A stretch of 64,000 nt of DNA from Clostridia bacterium (GTDB lineage Bacteria; Bacillota; Clostridia; UMGS1810): positions 1-64,000 of the forward strand of contig JAFUPN010000010.1 in the NCBI GenBank assembly GCA_017481205.1. The letters run 5' to 3'. Shown in pieces: positions 29,733-42,600 of this stretch (its first letter is position 1; every line of letters begins with the position of its first letter). The notes below the pieces were generated by a model that saw only the letters and a program-made list of their open reading frames with translations, was not told the origin of the DNA and searched no databases. A program made the position numbers and the translations under genes.

Positions 29733-30422
29733 ATGATTGGTATTATCGGCGCGATGGATGTTGAGATTCAGGGACTGGTCTCTGCTATGGAAATATCCGA
29801 AGCAAAAACTATAAGCAGTATAAAATTTTATAAAGGAATCCTTGAAGGCAAGGAAACAGTTATTGCAAAATGCAACCCAGGAAAGGTTAATGCTGCAATA
29901 TGTGCTCAGACAATGATACTTATATACGGCATTGACGCACTGATAAATACAGGTGTAGCCGGAGGATTAAGCAAAAATCTGAACATATGTGATGTTGCAA
30001 TAGCTGAAAATGTGGTTCAGCACGATATGGATACCACACCGCTGGGAGACCCGGCAGGTCTTATAAGCGGACTTGACCTTGTTAAAATACCGGCAGATAA
30101 GAAAATAGCATTGCTCCTGACAGAATGTGCCTCAGGCTGTGACAATACAAATGTGGAAGCCGGCACAATTGCCAGCGGAGACCAATTTCTCAACAGCAGT
30201 GATGTCAAGGACAGAATTGTATCGCTTTTCGGAGCTATTGCCGGAGAAATGGAAGGAGCAAGCATCGGTCATGTTGCATACACAAACGGTGTTCCCTTCG
30301 GTGTGCTGAGGGTTATATCCGACAATGCAGATGGTGACTCAGATATGGATTTCCCCCACTTTTGTGCTCTTGCGGCAGAAAAATCTATAAAAATCTGCAG
30401 GGAATTTGTCAAAAAATTTTAA
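29733..30422 (+). CDS. mtnN: 5'-methylthioadenosine/S-adenosylhomocysteine nucleosidase
   Basis: MtnN (Pfs) hydrolyses MTA and SAH to adenine and a thioribose or ribosyl-homocysteine. It has 229 residues from MIGIIGAMDVEI, the family-typical start, behind AAAGGAGGT. TGVAGGL is the phosphate-site-like loop, GEMEGASIGHVA holds the substrate Glu and RVISDNADG the catalytic Asp. Single-gene unit with its own promoter and terminator; the released adenine may feed the salvage genes elsewhere. Confidence 0.95.
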   Translation: MIGIIGAMDVEIQGLVSAMEISEAKTISSIKFYKGILEGKETVIAKCNPGKVNAAICAQTMILIYGIDALINTGVAGGLSKNLNICDVAIAENVVQHDMDTTPLGDPAGLISGLDLVKIPADKKIALLLTECASGCDNTNVEAGTIASGDQFLNSSDVKDRIVSLFGAIAGEMEGASIGHVAYTNGVPFGVLRVISDNADGDSDMDFPHFCALAAEKSIKICREFVKKF

Positions 30423-30432
30423 TCAAGCATCT

Positions 30433-30475
30433 AAAAAATCCTGTCAAAGCGGTTAATGCCATGACAGGATTTTTT
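30433..30475 (+). terminator. Bidirectional terminator after mtnN
   Basis: 14-bp perfect stem (30433-30446 with 30462-30475) with A-run left and T-run right. It separates mtnN from the minus-strand surface region. Confidence 0.9.
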
Positions 30476-30578
30476 TGATTACAAATTTTTTTGTATATTC
30501 AAGGATTTATCAAATCATACTTCTGAATAGTCAGCCAAATAAAACCAAGAAAGAATTTTGCAGGTCTTTTATAATAAA

Positions 30579-30980
30579 CTAATCATTATTACAGCAGCAA
30601 TCTTCTCTGGTTGGTTCTATACCTTCAAACTCGCTTTTTTCAGGCGGGAAGAACTCGTCTGTCGGGAATCTAAGCTTATCAAAAAGATCACATGGGCTGG
30701 TATCAGTTGTAGTCACGCAGTCATTCTGAGGAATGCAGTAGTCAATAACAGGGATAAGAAGCTGTGTTTCCCTTTCAAGACGCACAATTGTAAAGAGACC
30801 GAGAGTAACATACACACGTCTGCCGCTTTCAGGGTCAACAATTATGTCATCAAACACTCTGCACACATTGTCAGGAATACTTGCCACTTCGATTTCTCCG
30901 CAGCAGCAACATTTATCACAACTGTCAATAACCTTTGCCGCAAGGCAGATAGGGTCAACAACTTCTGTGTGTGACAGCAT
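30579..30980 (-). CDS. Cys-rich hypothetical protein (copy 1 of a pair)
   Basis: 133 residues from the ATG at 30980. The N-terminal block reads DPICLAAKVIDSCDKCCCC; the middle is beta-rich (RRVYVTLGLFTIVRLERE) and the C-terminus is DCCCNND. The same N-terminal pattern, C-x(4)-KV-x-DSC, occurs in the 166-residue protein at 40431-40931, so the two form a family. There is no signal peptide. Spore coat or exosporium proteins of clostridia can be this Cys-rich, but that is only a guess. The first nine codons overlap the end of the recombinase gene in another frame; a possible longer start at 31022 lacks support. Confidence 0.65.
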   Translation of the reverse strand: MLSHTEVVDPICLAAKVIDSCDKCCCCGEIEVASIPDNVCRVFDDIIVDPESGRRVYVTLGLFTIVRLERETQLLIPVIDYCIPQNDCVTTTDTSPCDLFDKLRFPTDEFFPPEKSEFEGIEPTREDCCCNND

Positions 30981-31809
30981 TTTTAGACAAAAGAATTTCC
31001 TGTGCTTTGCTATATACCTCATCCGAAATAATTCTGTAGCTTTCGTTGTGATTTATGATATAATCCTCTTCAGAAATCGGTACTCTCCTTCCTGAAAGAA
31101 AATCAGCAGTCGAGCTTTTATTATTTACAATATTCCCTATGTACAATGGATTTGACAAAATTCTCCTGACTGTCTTAAACTGCCATTTCTTACCTTTTTT
31201 TGAACAAATCCCTAAGCTGTTTAAGCAATTGGCAATTTTTCTTATTCCAAAGCCTTGTTCGCAGTACATTTCAAAAATCCGGCGCACGACTGCAGCTTCC
31301 TCAGGATTTATCCTGAAATCGTAGTTTTTTCCGTGATTGTATCCGTATACACAGGCTGCCGGTCTGCCATGCTTTGCTCCCTGCAGCTTACCAAAAATTA
31401 TTCTTTTTGACAGATTACAGCTTTCCTCCTGTGCCAAGGCAGCAAAAAGTGTTATAACAAATTCGGATTCTCCTAGCACCGTCTGATTGGACGAAAGAAA
31501 GCGCACCTCTACCCCGTTTGACTTCAGCTCCCGTATGCCGTTAAGAAAATCAACAGTATTTCTTGCAAAACGGCTGATATCCTTTACAAGAAGCATATCA
31601 AACTTGTTTTCGCGGCTTTCTTCCAGCATTTGCATAAACTGAGGTCGTTTCAAAGCACTTTTACCGCTTATTCCTCTGTCTGCGTATATTTTGACCAGGT
31701 CATATCCATGCTTTTGCGAATAGGATACAAAAAACTCAGATTGATTTTTAAGAGAATTAAGCTGCTCATCACTGCCGGTGGAAACTCTGCAATATGCCGC
31801 TGTTCTCAT
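30955..31809 (-). CDS. Serine site-specific recombinase (short form)
   Basis: 284 residues. The resolvase domain has the nucleophile S10 in AAYCRVST, then IYADRGISGKS, LVKDISRFARNTVDF and FAALAQEES. A PF07508-type Recombinase domain follows (GIRKIANCLNSLGICSKKGKKWQFKTVRRILSNPLYIGN split across about 190-230). It ends after EEDYIINHNESYRIISDEVYSKAQEIL, without the zinc-ribbon and coiled-coil part of large serine integrases (about 450-550 residues), so it is a natural short form or a truncation. The start overlaps the stop of a 26-codon leader ORF (ATGA). No phage or plasmid genes are near. Confidence 0.85.
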   Translation of the reverse strand: MRTAAYCRVSTGSDEQLNSLKNQSEFFVSYSQKHGYDLVKIYADRGISGKSALKRPQFMQMLEESRENKFDMLLVKDISRFARNTVDFLNGIRELKSNGVEVRFLSSNQTVLGESEFVITLFAALAQEESCNLSKRIIFGKLQGAKHGRPAACVYGYNHGKNYDFRINPEEAAVVRRIFEMYCEQGFGIRKIANCLNSLGICSKKGKKWQFKTVRRILSNPLYIGNIVNNKSSTADFLSGRRVPISEEDYIINHNESYRIISDEVYSKAQEILLSKNAVTHRSC

Positions 31810-31886
31810 GATTTTTTTCTTTTGTTAAAGATACTGATAAGCTTCTTTAAGTACTTACTGTGTATTTTTATATATTTGATTTTCAA
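31806..31886 (-). CDS. 26-residue lysine-rich leader ORF coupled to the recombinase
   Basis: Minus-strand TTG start at 31886 with GAGGTG (31893-31898) exactly 6 nt upstream, then 25 codons and TGA overlapping the ATG of the recombinase (ATGA). The peptide starts MKIKYIKIHSKYLKK and ends NKRKKS; 10 of its 26 residues are Lys or Arg. The ribosome site lies in the 3' arm of the upstream gene's terminator hairpin, so the hairpin would hide it. It could be a leader peptide for coupled translation or a small basic protein. An alternative is chance in AT-rich leader DNA. Confidence 0.5.
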   Translation of the reverse strand: MKIKYIKIHSKYLKKLISIFNKRKKS

Positions 31887-31889
31887 AAA

Positions 31890-31926
31890 AATCACCTCCG
31901 CAGCATTATATGCCACAGAGGTGATT
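31890..31926 (-). terminator. Terminator of the SLH gene, masking a ribosome site
   Basis: Minus-strand AATCACCTC pairs with GAGGTGATT and is followed by a T-run. The imperfect middle (TGTGGCAT/ATGCTGCG) extends the stem. The GAGGTG used by the leader ORF is in the 3' arm. Confidence 0.75.
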
Positions 31927-31932
31927 AAAATG

Positions 31933-33117
31933 TTAAATGTCGTCCGATATCCCAAAAAACTCCATTAAAAATTCAAAGGTTTCTTCATCAATGTCGGCAA
32001 CCTTGGTTTTGAAGTTGCTTCGGCTTATTTCCGGCATTTCACTGTACAGTGTGTATGTATCCGCAATCTCATCGGTATAATTGGTAAGAACACTGTCATA
32101 TGAAATTTCATATTTGCCTGCATCGGCAATTATTTTATCTATAACGGAAATAATGTTATTAACAATAGTACGCTCTGTTCCTCTGAATTTATTTTTGTTG
32201 TTTGAAAGGGCTGTTTTGGCTTTTGTAAGTCTTTCGATAATATCCTTGTTTATTTCCTCATATTCTTTCGGTGTCAATTCCTGTTCAGTATCATCTCCGG
32301 CAGAATCTCCTGTTGATGAATCATCACTTGTAGAATTATTGCTGTCATCGGACGATTCTTCATCATCTTTTGATGAAGAGCTTCCTGAGGATGACAAGCC
32401 GCCTCCGCCGCCGGACGGACGTCTTGTTCCACCTCCTGTAGAAACAGTAGCCTGAGTGGTTGTTGTGGCTGTAGTTGTTGCTTTTACAAAACGTGCAAGA
32501 ACAACTGCAATCTCTCCTCTTTTCATATTTTCAGTAGCTCTGAAGGTTTTTCCATCCTCAAGAGACATAAGAGAATTTGTTACTACCTTATTCACATAAA
32601 CATATGCCCAGTCAGACACCTTATCGTTAATAATTGCTTTAAGTCCAAGGTCATATAGATTTGCAACTCTGCACAGAATAGCGCAGAATTCCTCTCTGGT
32701 AATATTATTATTTCCTCTGAAGGTGCCGTCATCATATCCGGTGATATATCCGGCTTTTTTTGCAACAAGCACATACGGTGCAAACCAATCGTCAGACTTT
32801 ACATCAGTAAACTGAACAGTATCTGCTTCTTTGTATCCGAAAACAAGGTTAACCATTTTGCACAGCTCTGCTCTGGTAAGACCAGATTTCGGACCGAAGG
32901 TACCGTCACCATTTCCATTTACAACCCCTGCCTCGACAAGCTTATATATAGCCTTTCCCTCTTCTGTGGTCTCATCAACATCTGCAAATTTTAGTGTAGG
33001 TGAAGCAGCGGAGGCTGCAGCAGTACCAGCAGCAGTTGTGCTGTCATCAGCAAAAACAGTTACACCGGATGTAAATACAAACACAGCAGTTATCAGCAAA
33101 GAAAGTATTCTTTTCAT
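31933..33117 (-). CDS. Secreted SLH-domain protein
   Basis: 394 residues from the ATG at 33117 behind AGGAGGAA. A signal peptide (MKRILSLLITAVFVFTSG..FA) is followed by three SLH repeats (about 45-200; TRAELCKMVNLVFG, TREEFCAILCRVAN, KRGEIAVVLARF). A Thr-rich stretch, a GGG and Ser/Asp-rich linker (about 205-270) and a helical C-terminal domain without a family match complete it. SLH domains anchor proteins to secondary cell-wall polysaccharide. It follows the 2304-residue SLH gene, 61 bp apart with a hairpin between. Confidence 0.85.
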   Translation of the reverse strand: MKRILSLLITAVFVFTSGVTVFADDSTTAAGTAAASAASPTLKFADVDETTEEGKAIYKLVEAGVVNGNGDGTFGPKSGLTRAELCKMVNLVFGYKEADTVQFTDVKSDDWFAPYVLVAKKAGYITGYDDGTFRGNNNITREEFCAILCRVANLYDLGLKAIINDKVSDWAYVYVNKVVTNSLMSLEDGKTFRATENMKRGEIAVVLARFVKATTTATTTTQATVSTGGGTRRPSGGGGGLSSSGSSSSKDDEESSDDSNNSTSDDSSTGDSAGDDTEQELTPKEYEEINKDIIERLTKAKTALSNNKNKFRGTERTIVNNIISVIDKIIADAGKYEISYDSVLTNYTDEIADTYTLYSEMPEISRSNFKTKVADIDEETFEFLMEFFGISDDI

Positions 33118-33137
33118 AAAGTTCCTCCTTTTTTGCA

Positions 33138-33168
33138 TTTACGGACGGATTATGCACCCGTCCGTAAA
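33138..33168 (-). terminator. Hairpin between the two SLH genes
   Basis: 11-bp perfect stem TTTACGGACGG/CCGTCCGTAAA with a 9-nt loop and no T-run after it. It lies 20 nt upstream of the small SLH gene start; an attenuator or processing site is as likely as a terminator. Confidence 0.5.
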
Positions 33169-33178
33169 CAAACTAAAA

Positions 33179-36100
33179 TTAATATAAATATCTTCTCAGA
33201 GTGATGCTGTCATCACCGGAAATTTTTTCGTACTGGTCAATTACTGCTTCATCTGCCGAATGCTCGGGAGATTCAATCTTATTGTCCTGTATATACTGAG
33301 AAATAAAGTCTACCACAGTGTCAACAGTAAATCTGTCATCAGTATCATGACCGATTACAATATCCTCAATTCTTTCAACATCAAAGGTTTCAAGAATATT
33401 TTCCTTTGTATATTCCTTTGCAAAGCCGTTGCTTGCCATATTACCAATCATGCTGATTATCTGAGAGCTGAGCTTATTTATAATCGGTATGTGAGACAGC
33501 TTTTCGTTGAAATCCTCACCGTTGATTGTACCGTTGGTATCAATTTCCTTAACAAGCTTGACAATCTGATTGAGAATTGCAGCTATTGCTTCTGCATAAA
33601 GCTCGTTTGCTGTTGTATAATCCTTATTTCCATATGCTTCTGAAGCTGATGAAAGCTTGGTATTGATATCTGTAAGCTCTGCTACGGTAAATCCGAGAGG
33701 TGTTTCTCCGGTTTCCTCAAGCTTTTCAAGAGATTCTTTCACATCTGCCAGCATAAGGTCAAGGTCTTTTTCAAGACCGCCGAATGAATTATCACCCATC
33801 TTATCTATCATTGATAAAACAGAATCAATCAGAGACTTAAGCTCGTCAAGAGTATATCCGGCAAAAACATCAGTGCCATCCTGAGTACTTGCCAGTATCT
33901 CATTGATGTCTGCAAACATTGTAACCAAATCTGCAGCATACTTATCTCTCATTTCATCGCGCTCCTGTTCGGTGAGGTCACCGTACCAAAGCAGTGCTTT
34001 GTCAAAGAGAATGAGATTTTCAAGAGCTATATCATAATACTCAATTATCGGTTTAATTTTGTATCCGCTGTTTGTCTTGCTTACAGCAGATGCATCGTAA
34101 TCAAACAGCTCACTCATAATGTCCTGTTCAACAAATTCCACGAGATAAGTATTATTCTTGTAGTAGGAATTATCATCGCCGTTAAGCTTGGTTACAAGCT
34201 TATTCTTAAATTTATTTACAACAGCTTCAAAAATCTTTGCAAGGTTAATCTTGACATTCATCTTTGTTGTGTATGCCGTTGATGTAACTGAGCCGTCCTC
34301 AAGCTGAGCCGCTACAGTCATTATTCCGTCATAATATTCCTGCTGAGACTCGGCAAACATAATCTTGAATTCATCCTCGCCGTATAAGTTGATGAATGCT
34401 CCGAAGCCTTTGTTTCTAAGCAGTGTTATAATTTCATCTGCACTGAAATCATATACCGCATTTGCAACACCCTTTGCAAGCTTGATTGTATCGGAATTTA
34501 TGGTGTATTCAGTAGTTTTATTCACGAAGCTGTTCATAAATTCATCAAAGAAGCTGTAGCTTACAATAGTATTGACAATCTCAGCACAAAGTACCTCATA
34601 TGCTTCTGCATCGCTGCGGAGCTCCTTAATATACTCTACTGCTGCTTCCATAGTGGTATCACTGAGATTTTCTGCACCAATGATATCTATAACTGCATCC
34701 AGCTCAGCCATTTCGATAACTTTTGATATTTCAATATCGGTTCCTGAAAGACTCTTTTTAAGATAAGCCTTTATTTCTCCGCGGATATCATCTACATCAA
34801 TTATCTCTGCAATATGCAGACCAAAGGGTTTAATTTCAATATAGCCCTCAGTGTCAATAAGACCGGTTGTATCAGAAAGCTTCTTAATGATTTCTGCATC
34901 CTTGCCCTTTAAACCGTTGCTTATGGGGTCTCTTGAAAGCTGCATTGCATCCTTAAGCGAATCCATAAATCTTGTATCGGATGCATAATGTGTATAAAGA
35001 CTCACATTTGAAAGGTCTATACCAAGGAAGCTTCCGTCTATCATAAGCTGGATGTACTTAAAGGTATAATATACCTTCATATCGGATGTAACAGCCGTGG
35101 TTTCATCAAATATCTTCCAGTTTCCTTCAGAATCCTGATATCTGAGTTCAGGATATATCATATGAGCATATGAACCGTCCACATAACCTGGGTTGCCTTC
35201 CTCTTCAAACACAATACCTTCGTCAGCATATACTTTTTCATATACGACTGCAGCAACCGAAGAGCCTGCTATTACATCTTTTACTGTACCGATATATGCG
35301 TCTGCTTCATTTACTCCGTAATAGAAATCGACCTTAAATTTTTCTGTCAGTTCAATCCATTTTGCATACAGAGTGATATTGCCTGTAACAGGTGTTGCAA
35401 AGTCATATTTTGTGGTGAACTCCTGACCGGTGTACCATCCGTCAAATACATAACCGTTTCTGAAAGGTTCCGCAGGCTGTGATGCATACTTGCCATAAGC
35501 AACAGTCTGAGAGGTAACTGCAGAACCTCCGTTTGATACAAAGGCTACGGTATATTCAATAATTTCCCACTTGGCATACAGTGTAACAGCTCCGGTGACC
35601 GCTTTGTCAAAGTCATACAGATTTGTATAAGATGCATTGGTATACCATCCGTTGAAGGTATAGCCCTCCTTTGAGGGTTCTGCCGGTTCGTTTATCTTAT
35701 CTCCATGATTGATAATTTGTGACTCTACGGCAGTACCGTCTACAGACTCAAAGATCACCGTATATTTATTTATATCCCATTTTGCATACAGTACAAAATT
35801 TGAAACAACTGCAGAATCAAAATCATAAGCTGTATTCAGAGTACTGTCAGTATACCAGCCGGCAAATGTATAACCTTCCTTTTCAGGAGAAGCCGGAGTT
35901 GTTACCTTTGAGCCATGCTCAACAGTGCGGGACTCAACCGAAGAACCGCTGTTTGTGTCAAATTCAACAGTGTACTTATTAAGTTCCCATTTTGCATACA
36001 AGGTTATGTTGTCAACCACAGGAACGGCAAAATTATATTTTGATATAAAGCCGCTGTCAGAATACCAACCTATAAAGGTATATCCTTCTTTTACAGGCAC

Positions 36101-39100
36101 TTCCGGCTCTGCTGCAGTTCCTCTGTAGTTAACATGCTGGTCAGGAATAACCTCATCACAATCGGTTACAAAAGAAACCTTATACTGATTTATATTCCAT
36201 TTTGCATACAGGGTAATATTTCCTGTAACAACAGCATTAAAATCATATGCATTTGTCAACGAAGAGTCTGAATACCATCCGTCAAAGGTATATCCTGTTC
36301 TCTTGGGTGCTGCAGGTTCGGTTGCTTTTCCACCCTCGGTTATTCTCTGGGACGATACGCTTGAACCTCCGTTTGCTCTGAATGTTACATAATACACCTC
36401 AGGAACTCTGACTTCCCATTTTGCATATAGCTTCATATCCTTAATTACAGGAGTTGAAAAATCATATTTCAGAGTCAAAGCCTTGTTTGAATACCAACCG
36501 ATAAAATTATATCCGTCTTTTACCGGAGCTTCAGGCTCGACCGCTGCAGTGTTGTAAGGAATATACTGACTTGCCACCGCAGAACCGCCGTTGCTTTCAA
36601 ATACTATATCATATATATTGATATTCCATTTTGCATACAGAGTAAACGAAGAATTTACGGGAGTATTGAAATCATATGCATTTGTATATTCTTCATCAAG
36701 ATACCAGCCACCAAAGGTATAACCTGTTCTTCTGGGAGTTGAAGGCTTGTTTACCTTATTTCCCTCAAGTACAGTCTGATTGGGAATTGTCGTTCCGCCT
36801 TCGTTTACAAACGTAACTTTATATTCATTGGGAACTATTATTTCCCATTTTGCATACAGAGCAAAGCTTTCCTTAACAGGAGCTGTAAAATCATACAGCT
36901 CTGTCAGATCATGATCTGTAAACCAGCCTATAAAGCTATATCCGTTCATAACCGGAGCCTCAGGCTCTGTTACAAGCTCTCCGTAAGAAACTGTCTGCCC
37001 GGAAACCTCAGAGCCTCCGTTGCTTTCAAAGGTTATATCAAATGTATGTGCAATATAATTTGCATACACGGTAATATCACTGTTTACAGGAGCTTTAAAA
37101 TCAAATTTCACTGTAAATGTGTCATCAGTATACCAGCCCTCAAAATCATAACCTTCTTTTACAGGATCGGCAGGTCTTGACATCTGCTCTCCCGCCGCAA
37201 CAGTCTGAGGCTTGATGGGAGTTCCCAGCAGCGTGGTTCCGCCATAGGTTTCAAAGGTAACAACATATGATGTTACTATTATTTCTTCCCATTTTGCATA
37301 CAAAACTGTATTTGCTGTTACAGCTGAGGTGAAATCATAGTAATTTTCAAAAGTATCTTCAGTATACCATCCGAGGAAATTATATCCATCCTTCACAGGG
37401 TCCTCAGGCTTAACAGCCATTTCACCGTGCTCAATCCTCTGTGCTTCCACATCGGAGCCGCCATCGGTAATAAAGGTAACATCGTATACATCAGGAGTCC
37501 ATTTTGCATACAGAGTTATATCATTAGTAACCGGAGTTTCAAAATCATATTCTGAGGAATATGCGGTATCAGTATACCATCCGCCAAAGGTATAACCGTT
37601 TTTTTCCGGATCTGCAGGCTTTGTTGCTTTACTGTCCTTTACAACAGTCTGTGCTTCAATCTCGGTCCCGCCGTCTGTTACAAATTCAACTGTATATGTA
37701 TCAGGCACAACAATTATCCATTTTGCATACAGGGTAAATGCACTGTTTACTGCATTTGAAAAATCATATGCAACAGTACAATCCATATCGGTATACCAAC
37801 CGCCGAAGGTATAGCCGGATTTTTCCGGGTCAGCAGGTCTGACAGCTTTTTCGCCGCTTGCCACCGATTGAGACTTAATTGTTGTTCCTCCAAAGGTTTC
37901 AAAGCTTACAGTGTATGTACCGGGTTTTGCTTCATCCCATTTTGCATAAAGGGTAAACGAGCTTGTAACGGGAGTGTTAAAATTATATTCGTTGATACAT
38001 TCGGGTTCGGTATACCAGCCAATAAAATCATAACCTATTTTTATAGGAGCTGAAGGTCTGGTAACCATGCTTCCGTCTGAAACAAGCTGAGGAACAATAT
38101 CAGAACCTCCTGCTGAATTAAAGGTAACCGTATGAACATCAGGTGTAACGGTTTCTTCTCTCCATTTTGCATAGAGAGTAATATCAGAGGTTATATTTTC
38201 TGTTTCAAAGTCAAAAGCCACAGTACATTCAGCATTTTTATACCATCCTTCAAATACAAATCCGTCTCTGGAAGGATTATTTTCCGGCGGAACAATTTTG
38301 CTGCCGTCAAGTACATCGGTATATTTATCAAAGAACTCTTTGGGAGCACCGGTATAGTTATACGCAAAAGCTACTGTGCGGTATACAGGCTCAACCGATA
38401 CAGGTTTCCATACGGCATATACTGTAACAGGAACAGAAACCTCAGTATCTGCAGTATATGTATCTCCGCTTCCATCGGGCTTGGTATTCCAGCCTTCAAA
38501 GGTATAGCCGTCTCTTACTGGCTGCTCAGGAAGCTGAGTGCCGATATTCTTTCCCTTTTCAACTCTGATTGTCTTTGCCTCTGAGCCGGGGTAGTTGTAG
38601 TCAAACACAACCTTTGCATAAAGAACAGGAACAATCTTACCTTCATCGGTCACGGGATAATCCGGGGTAATAGCCTGTTCGTTGCCGTCCGGGTCTGTAT
38701 ATTTCCATTCTACATCATAGCTGTTGCCATCATCATCTGTGTATGTATCGGGCATATCAATAACATCGCCGGCTTTCTGACCGTGAGCAATGTCCGCTGT
38801 ACCCGTAGTTCCGTCGGGATTGGTATATGAAACACTGTGTTTTACAAGATCATAATAAACCTTAAGCTCATTATCGCCGGAGGTAATCGTAATCTGAGAA
38901 GTACTCTTGTCCTTATTATACACATAATTTGTCACATCAGGGATATCAGCTTTTTTAACAGCGCCCGAAGAGGCTTCTCCGGTTACAGTACGTTCTTCAT
39001 CAATTATATATTCGCTGAGATTAGCTGATGACTGAAAATAATAAGTAACAGAATAATCATATTTTCTTGAGGATGACGAACCACCGCCGCCACCGCCACC

Positions 39101-40093
39101 GCCGGCGGAAGAACCTCCGCTGACGCCGGGATACTTTGTGGTTGACTCAAGATATGTGGTATATGTAATTTCTCTTACTCCGTCAAAGACAGAATCTGTA
39201 CGCCAGTTAAAGAAGTGGGTACGTCCGTTGACATTTTTTACAACCACACCTTCGTCGGCAGTGACATCTGTAAGGGTTATAAAGCCGCCTCGTGCAAGGA
39301 GTCTGCCCTTGATTTTAACATTATTAAGATTAACTCTGCCTGTTCCGACACCATCACCAAGCACAAGGTCACCCTCGATGGTAACATTGCTGAGCGTAAT
39401 ATCCGGCTGATTAATCATAACACAGTCAAGAGAAGCCACTTCATCATAGCTGCTGCCTTTGACGGTCAGATAGGTTTTAAAGATATTGTACATAAGCTGT
39501 ACAAACTCTTCTCTGGTGATATTTGCAAGAGGTCTGAGAGTTTTATCCTCATAACCGTCTACATAGCCCTCTCCTATGAGTGCCGCAAGATACGGTCTTG
39601 CCCACTGGCTGACAGAAGAATAATCACCAAAGGTATCTATAGGCGAAAAATCGTCTGACTCAAGAACCAATGCCCTTGCCAACACAGCCATTACCTCTTC
39701 TCTGGTAATGAAGTCATCAGGGCGCATTTTTCCATTGCCGTCGCCATGGAAGGTTTCCATATGTACAGCCTTGCCGATATCGTTGTAGTACCATGAATCA
39801 CTGCTTATATCAGTGTAGGCAGATATATCATCAGATACCTCGGCACCGAAAGCCCTGTTGATAATTGCTGCCATTTCGGCTCTGGTAAGATTTGCCTCAG
39901 GCTCAATTGTGGTTTCTGATTTGCCGTTGATTATTCCGTTGTCTACCGCAAAGGTCATGGCGTCTTTTGACCAGCCCTGAGGAAAATCGACAAACTGTGA
40001 AGGCTCTGCAGCAAAAGCAGTGGGTACCATAGTACCAAGCATTGCCAGCACAACCAGCATCGAAATCAACCGCTTAAAACGATTTTGCTTCAT
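33179..40093 (-). CDS. Giant SLH surface protein with 15 InlB/Flg_new-type repeats
   Basis: 2304 residues from the ATG at 40093 (GGGAGGAA upstream). In order: signal peptide (1-28); three SLH repeats (30-215; TRAEMAAIINRAF, TREEVMAVLARAL, TREEFVQLMYNIF); a short strand-rich segment with LSNVTIEGDLVLGDG and GGFITLTDVTADEGVVV; a Gly/Ser linker; beta-grasp/MucBP-like strands; then 15 repeats of about 70 residues (about 494-1583) of the Listeria-Bacteroides (InlB B-repeat, Flg_new) type, each with GY.F.GWYTD and ending LYAKW; and a roughly 720-residue mostly helical C-terminal part that I cannot assign. Likely a wall-anchored adhesin or sugar-binding stalk. Confidence 0.9.
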   Translation of the reverse strand: MKQNRFKRLISMLVVLAMLGTMVPTAFAAEPSQFVDFPQGWSKDAMTFAVDNGIINGKSETTIEPEANLTRAEMAAIINRAFGAEVSDDISAYTDISSDSWYYNDIGKAVHMETFHGDGNGKMRPDDFITREEVMAVLARALVLESDDFSPIDTFGDYSSVSQWARPYLAALIGEGYVDGYEDKTLRPLANITREEFVQLMYNIFKTYLTVKGSSYDEVASLDCVMINQPDITLSNVTIEGDLVLGDGVGTGRVNLNNVKIKGRLLARGGFITLTDVTADEGVVVKNVNGRTHFFNWRTDSVFDGVREITYTTYLESTTKYPGVSGGSSAGGGGGGGGSSSSRKYDYSVTYYFQSSANLSEYIIDEERTVTGEASSGAVKKADIPDVTNYVYNKDKSTSQITITSGDNELKVYYDLVKHSVSYTNPDGTTGTADIAHGQKAGDVIDMPDTYTDDDGNSYDVEWKYTDPDGNEQAITPDYPVTDEGKIVPVLYAKVVFDYNYPGSEAKTIRVEKGKNIGTQLPEQPVRDGYTFEGWNTKPDGSGDTYTADTEVSVPVTVYAVWKPVSVEPVYRTVAFAYNYTGAPKEFFDKYTDVLDGSKIVPPENNPSRDGFVFEGWYKNAECTVAFDFETENITSDITLYAKWREETVTPDVHTVTFNSAGGSDIVPQLVSDGSMVTRPSAPIKIGYDFIGWYTEPECINEYNFNTPVTSSFTLYAKWDEAKPGTYTVSFETFGGTTIKSQSVASGEKAVRPADPEKSGYTFGGWYTDMDCTVAYDFSNAVNSAFTLYAKWIIVVPDTYTVEFVTDGGTEIEAQTVVKDSKATKPADPEKNGYTFGGWYTDTAYSSEYDFETPVTNDITLYAKWTPDVYDVTFITDGGSDVEAQRIEHGEMAVKPEDPVKDGYNFLGWYTEDTFENYYDFTSAVTANTVLYAKWEEIIVTSYVVTFETYGGTTLLGTPIKPQTVAAGEQMSRPADPVKEGYDFEGWYTDDTFTVKFDFKAPVNSDITVYANYIAHTFDITFESNGGSEVSGQTVSYGELVTEPEAPVMNGYSFIGWFTDHDLTELYDFTAPVKESFALYAKWEIIVPNEYKVTFVNEGGTTIPNQTVLEGNKVNKPSTPRRTGYTFGGWYLDEEYTNAYDFNTPVNSSFTLYAKWNINIYDIVFESNGGSAVASQYIPYNTAAVEPEAPVKDGYNFIGWYSNKALTLKYDFSTPVIKDMKLYAKWEVRVPEVYYVTFRANGGSSVSSQRITEGGKATEPAAPKRTGYTFDGWYSDSSLTNAYDFNAVVTGNITLYAKWNINQYKVSFVTDCDEVIPDQHVNYRGTAAEPEVPVKEGYTFIGWYSDSGFISKYNFAVPVVDNITLYAKWELNKYTVEFDTNSGSSVESRTVEHGSKVTTPASPEKEGYTFAGWYTDSTLNTAYDFDSAVVSNFVLYAKWDINKYTVIFESVDGTAVESQIINHGDKINEPAEPSKEGYTFNGWYTNASYTNLYDFDKAVTGAVTLYAKWEIIEYTVAFVSNGGSAVTSQTVAYGKYASQPAEPFRNGYVFDGWYTGQEFTTKYDFATPVTGNITLYAKWIELTEKFKVDFYYGVNEADAYIGTVKDVIAGSSVAAVVYEKVYADEGIVFEEEGNPGYVDGSYAHMIYPELRYQDSEGNWKIFDETTAVTSDMKVYYTFKYIQLMIDGSFLGIDLSNVSLYTHYASDTRFMDSLKDAMQLSRDPISNGLKGKDAEIIKKLSDTTGLIDTEGYIEIKPFGLHIAEIIDVDDIRGEIKAYLKKSLSGTDIEISKVIEMAELDAVIDIIGAENLSDTTMEAAVEYIKELRSDAEAYEVLCAEIVNTIVSYSFFDEFMNSFVNKTTEYTINSDTIKLAKGVANAVYDFSADEIITLLRNKGFGAFINLYGEDEFKIMFAESQQEYYDGIMTVAAQLEDGSVTSTAYTTKMNVKINLAKIFEAVVNKFKNKLVTKLNGDDNSYYKNNTYLVEFVEQDIMSELFDYDASAVSKTNSGYKIKPIIEYYDIALENLILFDKALLWYGDLTEQERDEMRDKYAADLVTMFADINEILASTQDGTDVFAGYTLDELKSLIDSVLSMIDKMGDNSFGGLEKDLDLMLADVKESLEKLEETGETPLGFTVAELTDINTKLSSASEAYGNKDYTTANELYAEAIAAILNQIVKLVKEIDTNGTINGEDFNEKLSHIPIINKLSSQIISMIGNMASNGFAKEYTKENILETFDVERIEDIVIGHDTDDRFTVDTVVDFISQYIQDNKIESPEHSADEAVIDQYEKISGDDSITLRRYLY
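35343..38613 (-). repeat. Array of 15 coding repeats (about 210 bp each) in the giant SLH gene
   Basis: Each unit encodes one strand-rich module with core GY.F.GWYT and end TLYAKW. The units differ enough from each other to be old duplications: units 7 and 12 are divergent, and unit 7 ends VYANY instead of YAKW. The DNA phrase encoding AKW with flanking codons recurs about every 210 bp. Confidence 0.9.
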
Positions 40094-40160
40094 AAAGGTT
40101 CCTCCCGTCATCAAATTACAGATTTTAATCATCTGAATCTGAATATAATTATACAAATAT

Positions 40161-40189
40161 ATTTTATAATGAAACAGAACAAATGTCAA
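40161..40189 (-). promoter_or_regulatory. Promoter of the giant SLH gene
   Basis: Minus strand TTGACA, 17-bp spacer, TAAAAT. The leader is about 60 nt to the ATG at 40093. Confidence 0.7.
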
Positions 40190-40256
40190 GTATTTATGGG
40201 ACTTACCGTGACATTTTGTATATATTTTTATATACAGCCTAAGGAGCCGTCAGACT

Positions 40257-40397
40257 GTCGGATAATTCAATTGTCGCACAAAAGAGCCCGGTCGGGGGAC
40301 GTACGTGACAGGCTGAAAGCCCCGTGGCACAACCTTTTTAGGTGCCACGGCATGTACGTCCCCACATCCGGGCGAACAAAACCACGAATTATTCGAC
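40257..40397. repeat. 141-nt nested palindromic element
   Basis: Three nested pairs of arms: GTCGGATAATTC (40257-40268) with GAATTATTCGAC (40386-40397); CCCGGTCGGGGGACGTAC (40287-40304) with an almost complementary arm at 40354-40372; CCGTGGCAC (40322-40330) with GTGCCACGG (40342-40350). GC content is far above the flanks. It could be a small mobile element, or a structured RNA if transcribed. Confidence 0.75.
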
Positions 40398-40430
40398 AAC
40401 CTGCCGTCCCCGAATAGCTTGCATGGCATA

Positions 40431-40931
40431 TTATTTCATCTTGCTACAGCCCCTACGGCTAACGCTGTCACACACTTCTGTCTGAGCCACCGGCAGATTG
40501 TTTTTGCTCCACTGATGAATATCAGATTCTCCAAAGGTTGTTTTTGATAAAAATGTTCTTGAGTTGCCTTCAGAGCCGAAAAGTATAACCTTTTTATCAT
40601 ATACAGCAAGACCTTCAACCGCTGTAGGTCGGCTTACACCGGTAAATACATCCAGAGTTATTCTGAAGAAAAATTTAAGGTCAACAGAATAATACCCCCT
40701 GTTAAAGGGCAGCGGCTCAACATCGGTATACACCCAGATTATCTCCGCTTTTTTGCATTTCACATTAGCAGCTCTGTCCACAAGGCACTGACCTGTTTCG
40801 GTAAGATATACCCTGATATTTTCAATACATTCCTTATCTCTGCAGGAGTCATAAACCTTATTTGTCTGAATGCATACACTGTCATTTGAATCGCTCTGAC
40901 AGGGATTACAAGAGCGCAATCTGTCACTCAT
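40431..40931 (-). CDS. Cys-rich hypothetical protein (copy 2 of a pair)
   Basis: 166 residues from the ATG at 40931 behind AGGAGGAA. The N-terminus MSDRLRSCNPCQSDSNDSVC runs into CIQTNKVYDSCRDKEC, the same C-x(4)-KV-x-DSC pattern as the protein at 30579-30980. A beta-rich part follows (SVDLKFFFRITLDVF), and the C-terminal tail is CDSVSRRGCSKMK. No signal peptide or membrane span is present. Proteins with this start occur in spore-forming clostridia as far as I recall, and a spore-coat role is plausible; I give no firm function. Confidence 0.7.
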   Translation of the reverse strand: MSDRLRSCNPCQSDSNDSVCIQTNKVYDSCRDKECIENIRVYLTETGQCLVDRAANVKCKKAEIIWVYTDVEPLPFNRGYYSVDLKFFFRITLDVFTGVSRPTAVEGLAVYDKKVILFGSEGNSRTFLSKTTFGESDIHQWSKNNLPVAQTEVCDSVSRRGCSKMK

Positions 40932-41053
40932 ATATATTCCTCCTAAACATAATAAAAGTTTTATTAACTTCAATATCATAGTATGCATCTGTCTGATTTT
41001 CTGTGAAACAAAATTACAATAGCCGAAGTAATCAGATTTAAATACGCGCAAAC

Positions 41054-41086
41054 AAAAAGAGTACATCGCAGTATGGCGATATACTC
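41054..41086 (-). terminator. Terminator of the wzz-cpsD-cpsB operon
   Basis: Minus strand GAGTATATCGC pairs with GCGATGTACTC (one G-U pair), 6-nt loop, then a run of five T. On the plus strand the same position would be a C-A mismatch, which fits minus-strand function. Confidence 0.8.
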
Positions 41087-41105
41087 TCTTAAAAAATATA
41101 ATATT

Positions 41106-41807
41106 TTATTTACTGAAAATCATATTCCATGCATTGGTATAAAATAGCTCCTCTGCATAGGGAGCAAGCTTTTTGCAGGCTGTGTTATATGCCTTCTTCA
41201 TATTGCACGGTCTTGAGGTCATATTGTGCATATCAGAGCCCATGACACAGGTTCTTCCGGATTTTATAAGTTTTTTTACAAATCCCCTTCCGCTTATGGT
41301 ATCCATAGACTTGCAGTTAAGTTGAAAACATATATCTAGTTCAAAAATGCTGAAAACGGAGTCTCCGAAATGTCTGAAATATCTGTCTATATGAGCCACA
41401 ACAGGTCTTATGCCCGCCAGAGTAAGCTCATACAGTCTCTCGATATCATTCTGGCTCCATTTGCCATAAGGCATTTCAACAAGCATATAGCTTGTGCCGG
41501 ATATACAAAGCTTATCTGCAGAAAGCACGTTTTTCAGTCCGGATGAAAAATCAACCTCAAACGCTGGTATTATCTCCGGTATATCTGCTCCATGTATCCG
41601 GGCACATTCCGTAATTTCGGCAATAGCCTCATCCCGGGCATGACATGCATCAAGAACAGTTGCTTCACCGGGATTAAAATGAGGTGTCGCAACAACATAC
41701 TCACAGCCCTGGCGAAAGCTGTCACGAAGCATACAGAAACCTGTGTTTAAATCATCGGCACCATCATCAATACCATGCAAAAAATGCCCGTGAAAATCTA
41801 TAAACAT
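41106..41807 (-). CDS. CpsB/CapC-type PHP tyrosine-protein phosphatase
   Basis: 233 residues from MFIDFHGHFLHGIDDGADD, chosen because it begins with the family hallmark (the usual form is H-x-H-x-L-x-GIDDG). Other metal-ligand blocks are ATPHFNPGE, PAFEVDFSSG, VAHIDRY and GSDMHN. It is a manganese-dependent phosphatase that dephosphorylates the tyrosine cluster of the CpsD kinase. Last gene of the module, 13 bp after cpsD. Confidence 0.88.
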   Translation of the reverse strand: MFIDFHGHFLHGIDDGADDLNTGFCMLRDSFRQGCEYVVATPHFNPGEATVLDACHARDEAIAEITECARIHGADIPEIIPAFEVDFSSGLKNVLSADKLCISGTSYMLVEMPYGKWSQNDIERLYELTLAGIRPVVAHIDRYFRHFGDSVFSIFELDICFQLNCKSMDTISGRGFVKKLIKSGRTCVMGSDMHNMTSRPCNMKKAYNTACKKLAPYAEELFYTNAWNMIFSK

Positions 41808-41820
41808 AAAACAACACACC

Positions 41821-42600
41821 CTATTTATTTGCTTCATCCTTATATTCATATTTATAGCCGTAGCGATACCCCTTGCTGTAATACTTCTTTCCGTAATACC
41901 GCGCTTTAGTGGATTTTTCTGCATACGTCATCAAAAAGCCGAGAATCTTGACTCCGGCTCTTCTGAGTATATCAACAGTCTTATCCATCATATCATATGT
42001 CGAAAAATTTTCTCTTGCCACAAGAACAACTCCCGATGTCATAGGAGCTATTATCATTGCATCAGTAACGGTCATAATAGGCGGTGTATCAATAAAAATG
42101 TAATCATATTTTTTTGACAGGTCGGCAAGCAGGTTTTTCATAACATCGCTCATAAGCAATTCTGCCGAATTAAGAGGTATCTCTCCTACGGGAATGCAAT
42201 CCATAGTACCGAACACGTTTTTTTGTATAGCTTCATCAACAGAACAAAAACCGCACAGCACATTAGACAGCCCTGTATCCTTGCTGATTTTAAGATAACG
42301 ATGTACACGTGGCTTGCGCATATCACAATCCATTAGCAAAACCCTGGCACCGGACTGGGCAAAGGTATATGCCAGATTTATACTTGCAGTAGTCTTTCCC
42401 TCTCCGGGCTCAGAGCTTGACACAAGAATAATTTTTCCGTCTTCTGTCTTGGGAAGAGAAAACATTATATTGGTTCTTGCAATTTTATATGATTCAAGCA
42501 TACTGAAGCTTGAAGAGTCATTAATTACATGTGCATCCTCAAACTCATGAAGCGATTTATACTTTTTCAGTTTCAGGTTTTTAAACAAATTGATTTTCAC
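41821..42600 (-). CDS. CpsD/CapB-type BY-kinase (tyrosine kinase)
   Basis: A 259-residue bacterial tyrosine kinase that controls surface polysaccharide length together with a Wzz-type activator. The Walker A motif SSSEPGEGKTT is at residues 61-71, Walker A' is VLLMDCDMRKPR and Walker B is IFIDTPP. The C-terminal tail has a dense Tyr cluster (ARYYGKKYYSKGYRYGYKYEY), the autophosphorylation region. It lies between the Wzz-type gene and the phosphatase. Confidence 0.93.
   Translation of the reverse strand: MKINLFKNLKLKKYKSLHEFEDAHVINDSSSFSMLESYKIARTNIMFSLPKTEDGKIILVSSSEPGEGKTTASINLAYTFAQSGARVLLMDCDMRKPRVHRYLKISKDTGLSNVLCGFCSVDEAIQKNVFGTMDCIPVGEIPLNSAELLMSDVMKNLLADLSKKYDYIFIDTPPIMTVTDAMIIAPMTSGVVLVARENFSTYDMMDKTVDILRRAGVKILGFLMTYAEKSTKARYYGKKYYSKGYRYGYKYEYKDEANK

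Follow-up and report, generated by a model that had tools for sequence, protein, structure and literature searches.

A 9.5-kb insert splitting a probable sporulation gene in a Clostridia genome, with a predicted hairpin over the ribosome site of its recombinase

The window, which is the whole stretch of 64,000 nucleotides analysed from a Clostridia bacterium, contains a short serine recombinase close to a lysine-rich small ORF and a terminator hairpin. Our preferred reading, to which we assign a probability of about 0.6, is that a 9.5-kb element splits a probable sporulation gene and has the recombinase as its excisase, that the hairpin guards its translation and that the small ORF bridges the two by translational coupling. 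Judged by its sequence features, the insert is a new gene-intervening element of the sporulation type. The split gene, the att cores, the restored frame, selection (in a related genus), the promoter type, the hairpin and the ORF were all read from sequence. The original prediction dealt with the hairpin and the small ORF and missed this context, in which the 3' end of the recombinase gene coincides with one junction of the 9.5-kb insert in a probable sporulation gene. Coordinates are collected in Table 1.

Table 1. Features of the element and of the gene that it splits; positions are those of the window.
Feature	Position	Strand	Remark
C-terminal half of split gene (~278 aa whole)	30579-30968	minus	match to longer relatives
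Serine recombinase, 284 aa	30955-31809	minus	Resolvase + Recombinase domains (PF00239, PF07508), no zinc-ribbon match
attR core ACAGAAGT (within GCTGTCACACACAGAAGTTGTTGACCC)	30961-30968	minus	common to both junctions
Small ORF, 26 codons, TTG start 31886-31884	31886-31806	minus	peptide LKIKYIKIHSKYLKKLISIFNKRKKS
Hairpin, SLH-gene terminator and putative ribosome-site mask	31926-31890	minus	17 pairs in 37 nt, dG -24.5
Ribosome site GGAGGTG in hairpin 3' arm	31899-31893	minus	8 nt between GGAGG and TTG
Cargo: SLH-domain protein, 401 aa	31933-33138	minus	
Cargo: giant SLH protein, 15 Listeria-Bacteroides (InlB-type) repeats	33179-40189	minus	
N-terminal half of split gene	40474-40931	minus	family match
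attL core ACAGAAGT (within CCGGTGGCTCAGACAGAAGTGTGTGACAGC)	40474-40481	minus	common to both junctions
Sigma-K-type promoter of split gene: AC, 17 nt, CATACTAT	41004-40978	minus	motif upstream of N-half

The split gene, its junctions and its distribution

A Cys-rich ORF downstream of the recombinase matched relatives with an open frame twice as long, the intact orthologues being ~280 aa. This ORF and the N-terminal half lie on one strand, with 9513 bp between the two cores. When the halves were joined at the core, the frame was restored exactly over a full length of 278 aa, and the joined protein fitted the family model from position 1 to 279 with 469 bits, versus 269 bits for the N-terminal half alone. 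The predicted excised circle would carry an attP site (GCTGTCACACACAGAAGTGTGTGACAGC) that is a perfect palindrome, GCTGTCACAC-ACAGAAGT-GTGTGACAGC, with 10-bp inverted arms around the core. Three features by which a gene-intervening element is recognized were found together: a split host gene with intact orthologues, a shared core that restores the frame and a serine recombinase within the element. The 3' end of the recombinase gene sits on the insert junction, where its last codons overlap the start of the C-terminal half of the split gene and are read in a different frame. At the other end of the insert, just inside attL, positions 40200-40430 form a GC-rich stretch with inverted repeats and no Rfam match.

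The identity of the split gene was searched for by several routes. Neither Pfam nor NCBIfam matched it, sequence comparison with the PDB gave no relative, and its AlphaFold model (pLDDT 75.7) gave no convincing fold match, with no Foldseek hit at E <= 0.001 and a VIA-align Z of at most 3.0. Its upstream region was more informative. CATAnnnT was present upstream of the gene in 92 of the 100 distinct sequences compared, preceded by AC at 16-17 nt in 76 of the 83 that were aligned; promoters of this type were seen in 20% of control genes and 17% of shuffles. AC followed after 16-17 nt by CATAnnnT is the sigma-K pattern of B. subtilis. In the genome of the window, a sigma-K gene scored above the curated cut-off. 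The split gene is conserved and, judged by its promoter type, probably a sigma-K-dependent sporulation gene.

Within the class, 104 of 196 genomes had a match to the gene and 92 did not. It was split at model position ~152-157 in genomes of at least five families (f1, f11, f34, f35 and f51), by elements of about 1.4 to 12 kb with unrelated cargo, including GAF-like, HAD-like, iron-transport-like and SLH proteins (names other than SLH were assigned by eye). Genome G003 has the same layout, core and restored frame around an element of 12 kb, and the other family f1 genomes agree in their junction sequences. Every site-152 element with a recombinase on its contig carried one from a single group (377-537 bits). 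The recombinases accompanying a split near position 70 were distant ones (73-122 bits). Several f1 elements (L189, L198-L201) share a protein of ~280-360 aa with an N-terminal hydrophobic stretch, together with giant SLH proteins.

In two genera of family f1, g2 and g3, intact and split genomes occur side by side. In genus g70 of family f51, all eight genomes held only split pieces, one of them having no C-terminal half in its assembly. Both halves are under purifying selection, as measured in this related genus, with dN/dS of 0-0.02 for the N-terminal half and 0.01-0.10 for the C-terminal half. A permanently broken gene would not be expected to hold such low values.

The recombinase and its paired ribosome site

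The recombinase has no Pfam match past residue 273 to a zinc-ribbon or coiled-coil C-terminal domain and ends at residue 284, and its long relatives are 457-488 aa. Because the C-terminal part is absent, we file it as derived from the large serine recombinases and not as a full member. A family search returned six relatives at 50-58% identity; a search of genome contigs for close relatives gave no confirmed match. The recombinase tree has deep forks without resolution and is therefore silent on a single origin of the short forms. A sigma-K-type promoter was looked for ahead of the recombinases and was not found, and no directionality factor was identified; we count both results against the preferred reading, together with the absent zinc-ribbon part, the restriction of the small ORF to one genome and the fact that masking of the SD is not universal. 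In G010 (L202) and G002 (L006) the recombinase lies in the opposite orientation relative to the split gene, and the G010 copy begins without a standard start codon (ATT AAA AGG). A switch in which the recombinase gene inverts itself, suggested by these two genomes, was set aside, as the junction data account for the locus by an insertion that has the recombinase at one of its ends.

In the window, the recombinase has no SD of its own, unlike nearly all of its short relatives, which have GGAGG just ahead of the start. A second in-frame start is precluded by a TAA only 15 nt upstream of the ATG (31809). Upstream, the SLH gene stops at 31933 and the hairpin begins 6 nt further on along the minus strand; its 3' arm is GGAGGTGATT, a T run follows the hairpin (AATCACCTCTGTGGCATATAATGCTGCGGAGGTGATT TTTTTG), and a simple terminator scan picks up a terminator-like site here. 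According to the original prediction, the SLH terminator hairpin has the ribosome site as its 3' arm, and in silico folding bore this out, with a predicted probability of pairing of about 1.0 for the SD. Rfam gave no match within 30000-42000 of the window. The TTG-started ORF, the GAGGTG at good spacing and the ATGA overlap with the recombinase, likewise proposed earlier, are all present on the minus strand. The overlap is formed by the TGA of the small ORF and the ATG of the recombinase. With overlapping stop and start and no SD at the second start, both hallmarks of translational coupling through an ATGA overlap are present in the window.

Masking was measured in relatives with the SD made to pair upstream, against a background of 144 genes with GGAGG. 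A stem with dG <= -15 had the SD in its 3' arm in 8 of 13 short recombinases (the window included) vs. 6 of the 144 background genes (Mann-Whitney p 0.0007, genomes within a genus not being independent). The masked SDs span two families and amount to an effective number of about four different hairpins. Masking is thus frequent and not required, since five short relatives (G005, G006, G010 and two g70 genomes) have no strong continuous stem; neither do most long recombinases. In G004, a hairpin of 21 pairs stands immediately ahead of the ATG and has the SD as its 3' arm; in G003 the SD is an arm of the SLH terminator, as in the window. These three hairpins share no sequence likeness beyond the SD and its complement. 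In genus g70, ACGTACCTT...GGAGGTGCGTT is common to five genomes, with a stem base of G-C or A-T. Both arms of this stem are nearly invariant, whereas the loop and the upstream DNA vary; covariation is slight (one pair, a level reached by 151 of 500 shuffles), there being too little variation. In some g70 genomes, the T run ends in a TTG that is the recombinase start, and in the window the small ORF starts at the same place.

Among the genomes examined, only that of the window had the small ORF itself. It was absent from every other recombinase locus examined, including all six relatives from the family search, and in those loci the SD was placed directly ahead of the recombinase start. Lack of conservation in relatives, which the original prediction named as a refuting sign, was thus seen for the peptide frame and not for the masked site, which recurs. 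The best reading of the ORF is a coupling bridge and not a conserved peptide; the spacer between the masked SD and the recombinase may have grown while staying readable. Ahead of the recombinase start of G002 (L006:1423-1500) there is a Lys-rich, in-frame extension of 26 codons, without an SD and with no sequence similarity to the window peptide.

These features can be assembled into a mechanism. Recombination between attL and attR at ACAGAAGT would release the element in circular form and rejoin the two halves of the gene, presumably in the terminal mother cell. Translation of the recombinase would need guarding, because early expression would lose the element. The sole usable ribosome site appears to be the 3' arm of the hairpin that terminates the upstream SLH gene. 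Read-through RNA would either terminate at the hairpin or keep the site paired, and the recombinase would stay silent outside sporulation. Once the site is freed, ribosomes could start at the TTG, translate the 26-codon ORF and reinitiate at the ATG that overlaps its stop. Unmasking might come from an RNA starting inside the hairpin, or from a mother-cell factor, either protein or RNA.

Alternative readings

The hairpin could be merely the SLH terminator, with the GGAGG and the ORF there by accident, in a junction that is compact and A-rich, and with a weak direct start for the recombinase. We regard this as unlikely, while giving it the most weight among the alternatives. It agrees with the terminator-like site detected by the simple scan and with an ORF that is not conserved and has a chance of ~3% of arising alone (a shuffled spacer is open ~8% of the time, and the right frame takes another third). 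However, of 842 terminator-like hairpins in the window and 80 related loci, only 12 (1.4%) had GGAGG in the 3' arm, so the masking is less easily attributed to chance than the ORF. The recurrence of masked SDs ahead of these recombinases in other genera and in another family, and the recombinase ATG without an SD, argue against accident as well.

An extension of the preferred reading, which we consider doubtful, makes the hairpin a three-way device of terminator, mask and promoter. The hairpin loop contains CATATAAT (CATATATT in G003), 5-7 nt ahead of the SD, which resembles the -10 box of mother-cell sigma factors; in the window, this site reached a promoter-score p of 0.07 at best, and the box is absent from G004 and from family f51. 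If this were true, an RNA started in the loop would be without the 5' arm, so that only sporulation-initiated RNA would be translatable and read-through RNA would be masked.

The small ORF and the recombinase might instead give one product by -1 frameshifting of the kind used by some transposases, with a lysine-rich N-terminal extension. The heptamer A AAA AAA stands immediately ahead of the ORF stop and in the right frame (AG A AAA AAA TCA TGA), and the -1 frame enters the recombinase without a stop. Yet A runs are common in an A-rich spacer, and all relatives start directly at the recombinase with no extension, which makes frameshifting improbable. Little probability also attaches to the insert being an ordinary mobile element that killed a dispensable gene whose halves are now decaying. 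The 92 class genomes without a gene match and the frequent lack of a good start codon in the C-terminal half fit such decay, but both halves are open in many species, the low dN/dS extends across a genus with a fixed split, and the junctions restore the frame exactly.

A functional role for the 26-residue peptide, as a basic regulatory or membrane-active peptide, is highly improbable: the original prediction correctly counted 10 of 26 residues as Lys/Arg, with hydrophobic residues interspersed, but the peptide occurs in no relative and its lysine richness is largely compositional, since base composition (53% A in this stretch) already predicts 6.4 Lys/Arg against the 10 observed. What stands of the switch proposed there is the SD masked by the hairpin, which recurs with unrelated hairpins in relatives; a functional peptide is not supported.

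Relation to known elements

In spore formers, gene-intervening elements have been described for a small number of genes, among them sigK, spsM, gerE and yabG. The gene studied here has no name, and its split falls at one and the same residue in at least five Clostridia families, in many cases in gut metagenome genomes; annotation pipelines would list its halves as separate genes. No paper on the split gene or its splitting was found among open-licence papers. The elements, down to about 1.4 kb, offer a natural series of small examples for asking how a mother-cell excisase stays silent, and we propose RNA masking in place of, or alongside, control by promoter and directionality factor. In some genomes another split site is used or the gene lies in three parts. 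In G092, G257, G258, G262, G264 and G288 (L215-L220, L224), the split is near residue 70 with a different recombinase group, and in G207 (L207), G089 and G230 (L213) the gene is in three pieces or both split sites are used, as if by two elements.

The elements gin, skin-Cd, SP-beta and yin belong to the same kind. One of them is gin, a non-phage element of 28.6 kb in gerE of Bacillus cereus ATCC10987, with three recombinases, the factor GirX, a 9-bp shared core and regulation by sporulation-specific expression (PMC5595907). Both have a serine recombinase, a split gene (a mother-cell gene in gin), a short core, a symmetric element att site and frame-restoring excision, which is predicted here. 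Unlike gin, the elements described here are about 1.4-12 kb, have mostly one short recombinase, split a different gene and have a masked SD. The skin elements in sigK of B. subtilis and C. difficile (skin-Cd) are prophage-like and excise in the terminal cell, and in C. difficile the recombinase is constitutively expressed and a directionality factor sets the timing (PMC5025042). They share with the present element an in-element serine recombinase; sigK is a gene of the sigma-K mother-cell stage, as the gene split here may be by its promoter type, and excision is predicted here. A masked SD is not known to have been described for skin. SP-beta in spsM and yin in yabG, the latter from a single isolate, are prophage or prophage-like elements that split a sporulation gene and excise during sporulation (PMC4191935, PMC10747680). 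Unlike these, the split described here recurs at one site in several families.

For the masking, the nearest parallel is IS200 tnpA, in which 5' hairpins reportedly place mRNA structure over the ribosome site and block transposase translation on read-through RNA. In both cases the SD of a recombining enzyme is paired in a 5' hairpin (a predicted pairing here), the enzyme being a proposed excisase here and a transposase there. We know of no upstream-gene terminator acting as the mask, and of no small coupling ORF, in IS200 tnpA. Among intact copies of the split gene, the gene's own SD lies within a strong hairpin in several genomes (L137, L126, L148).
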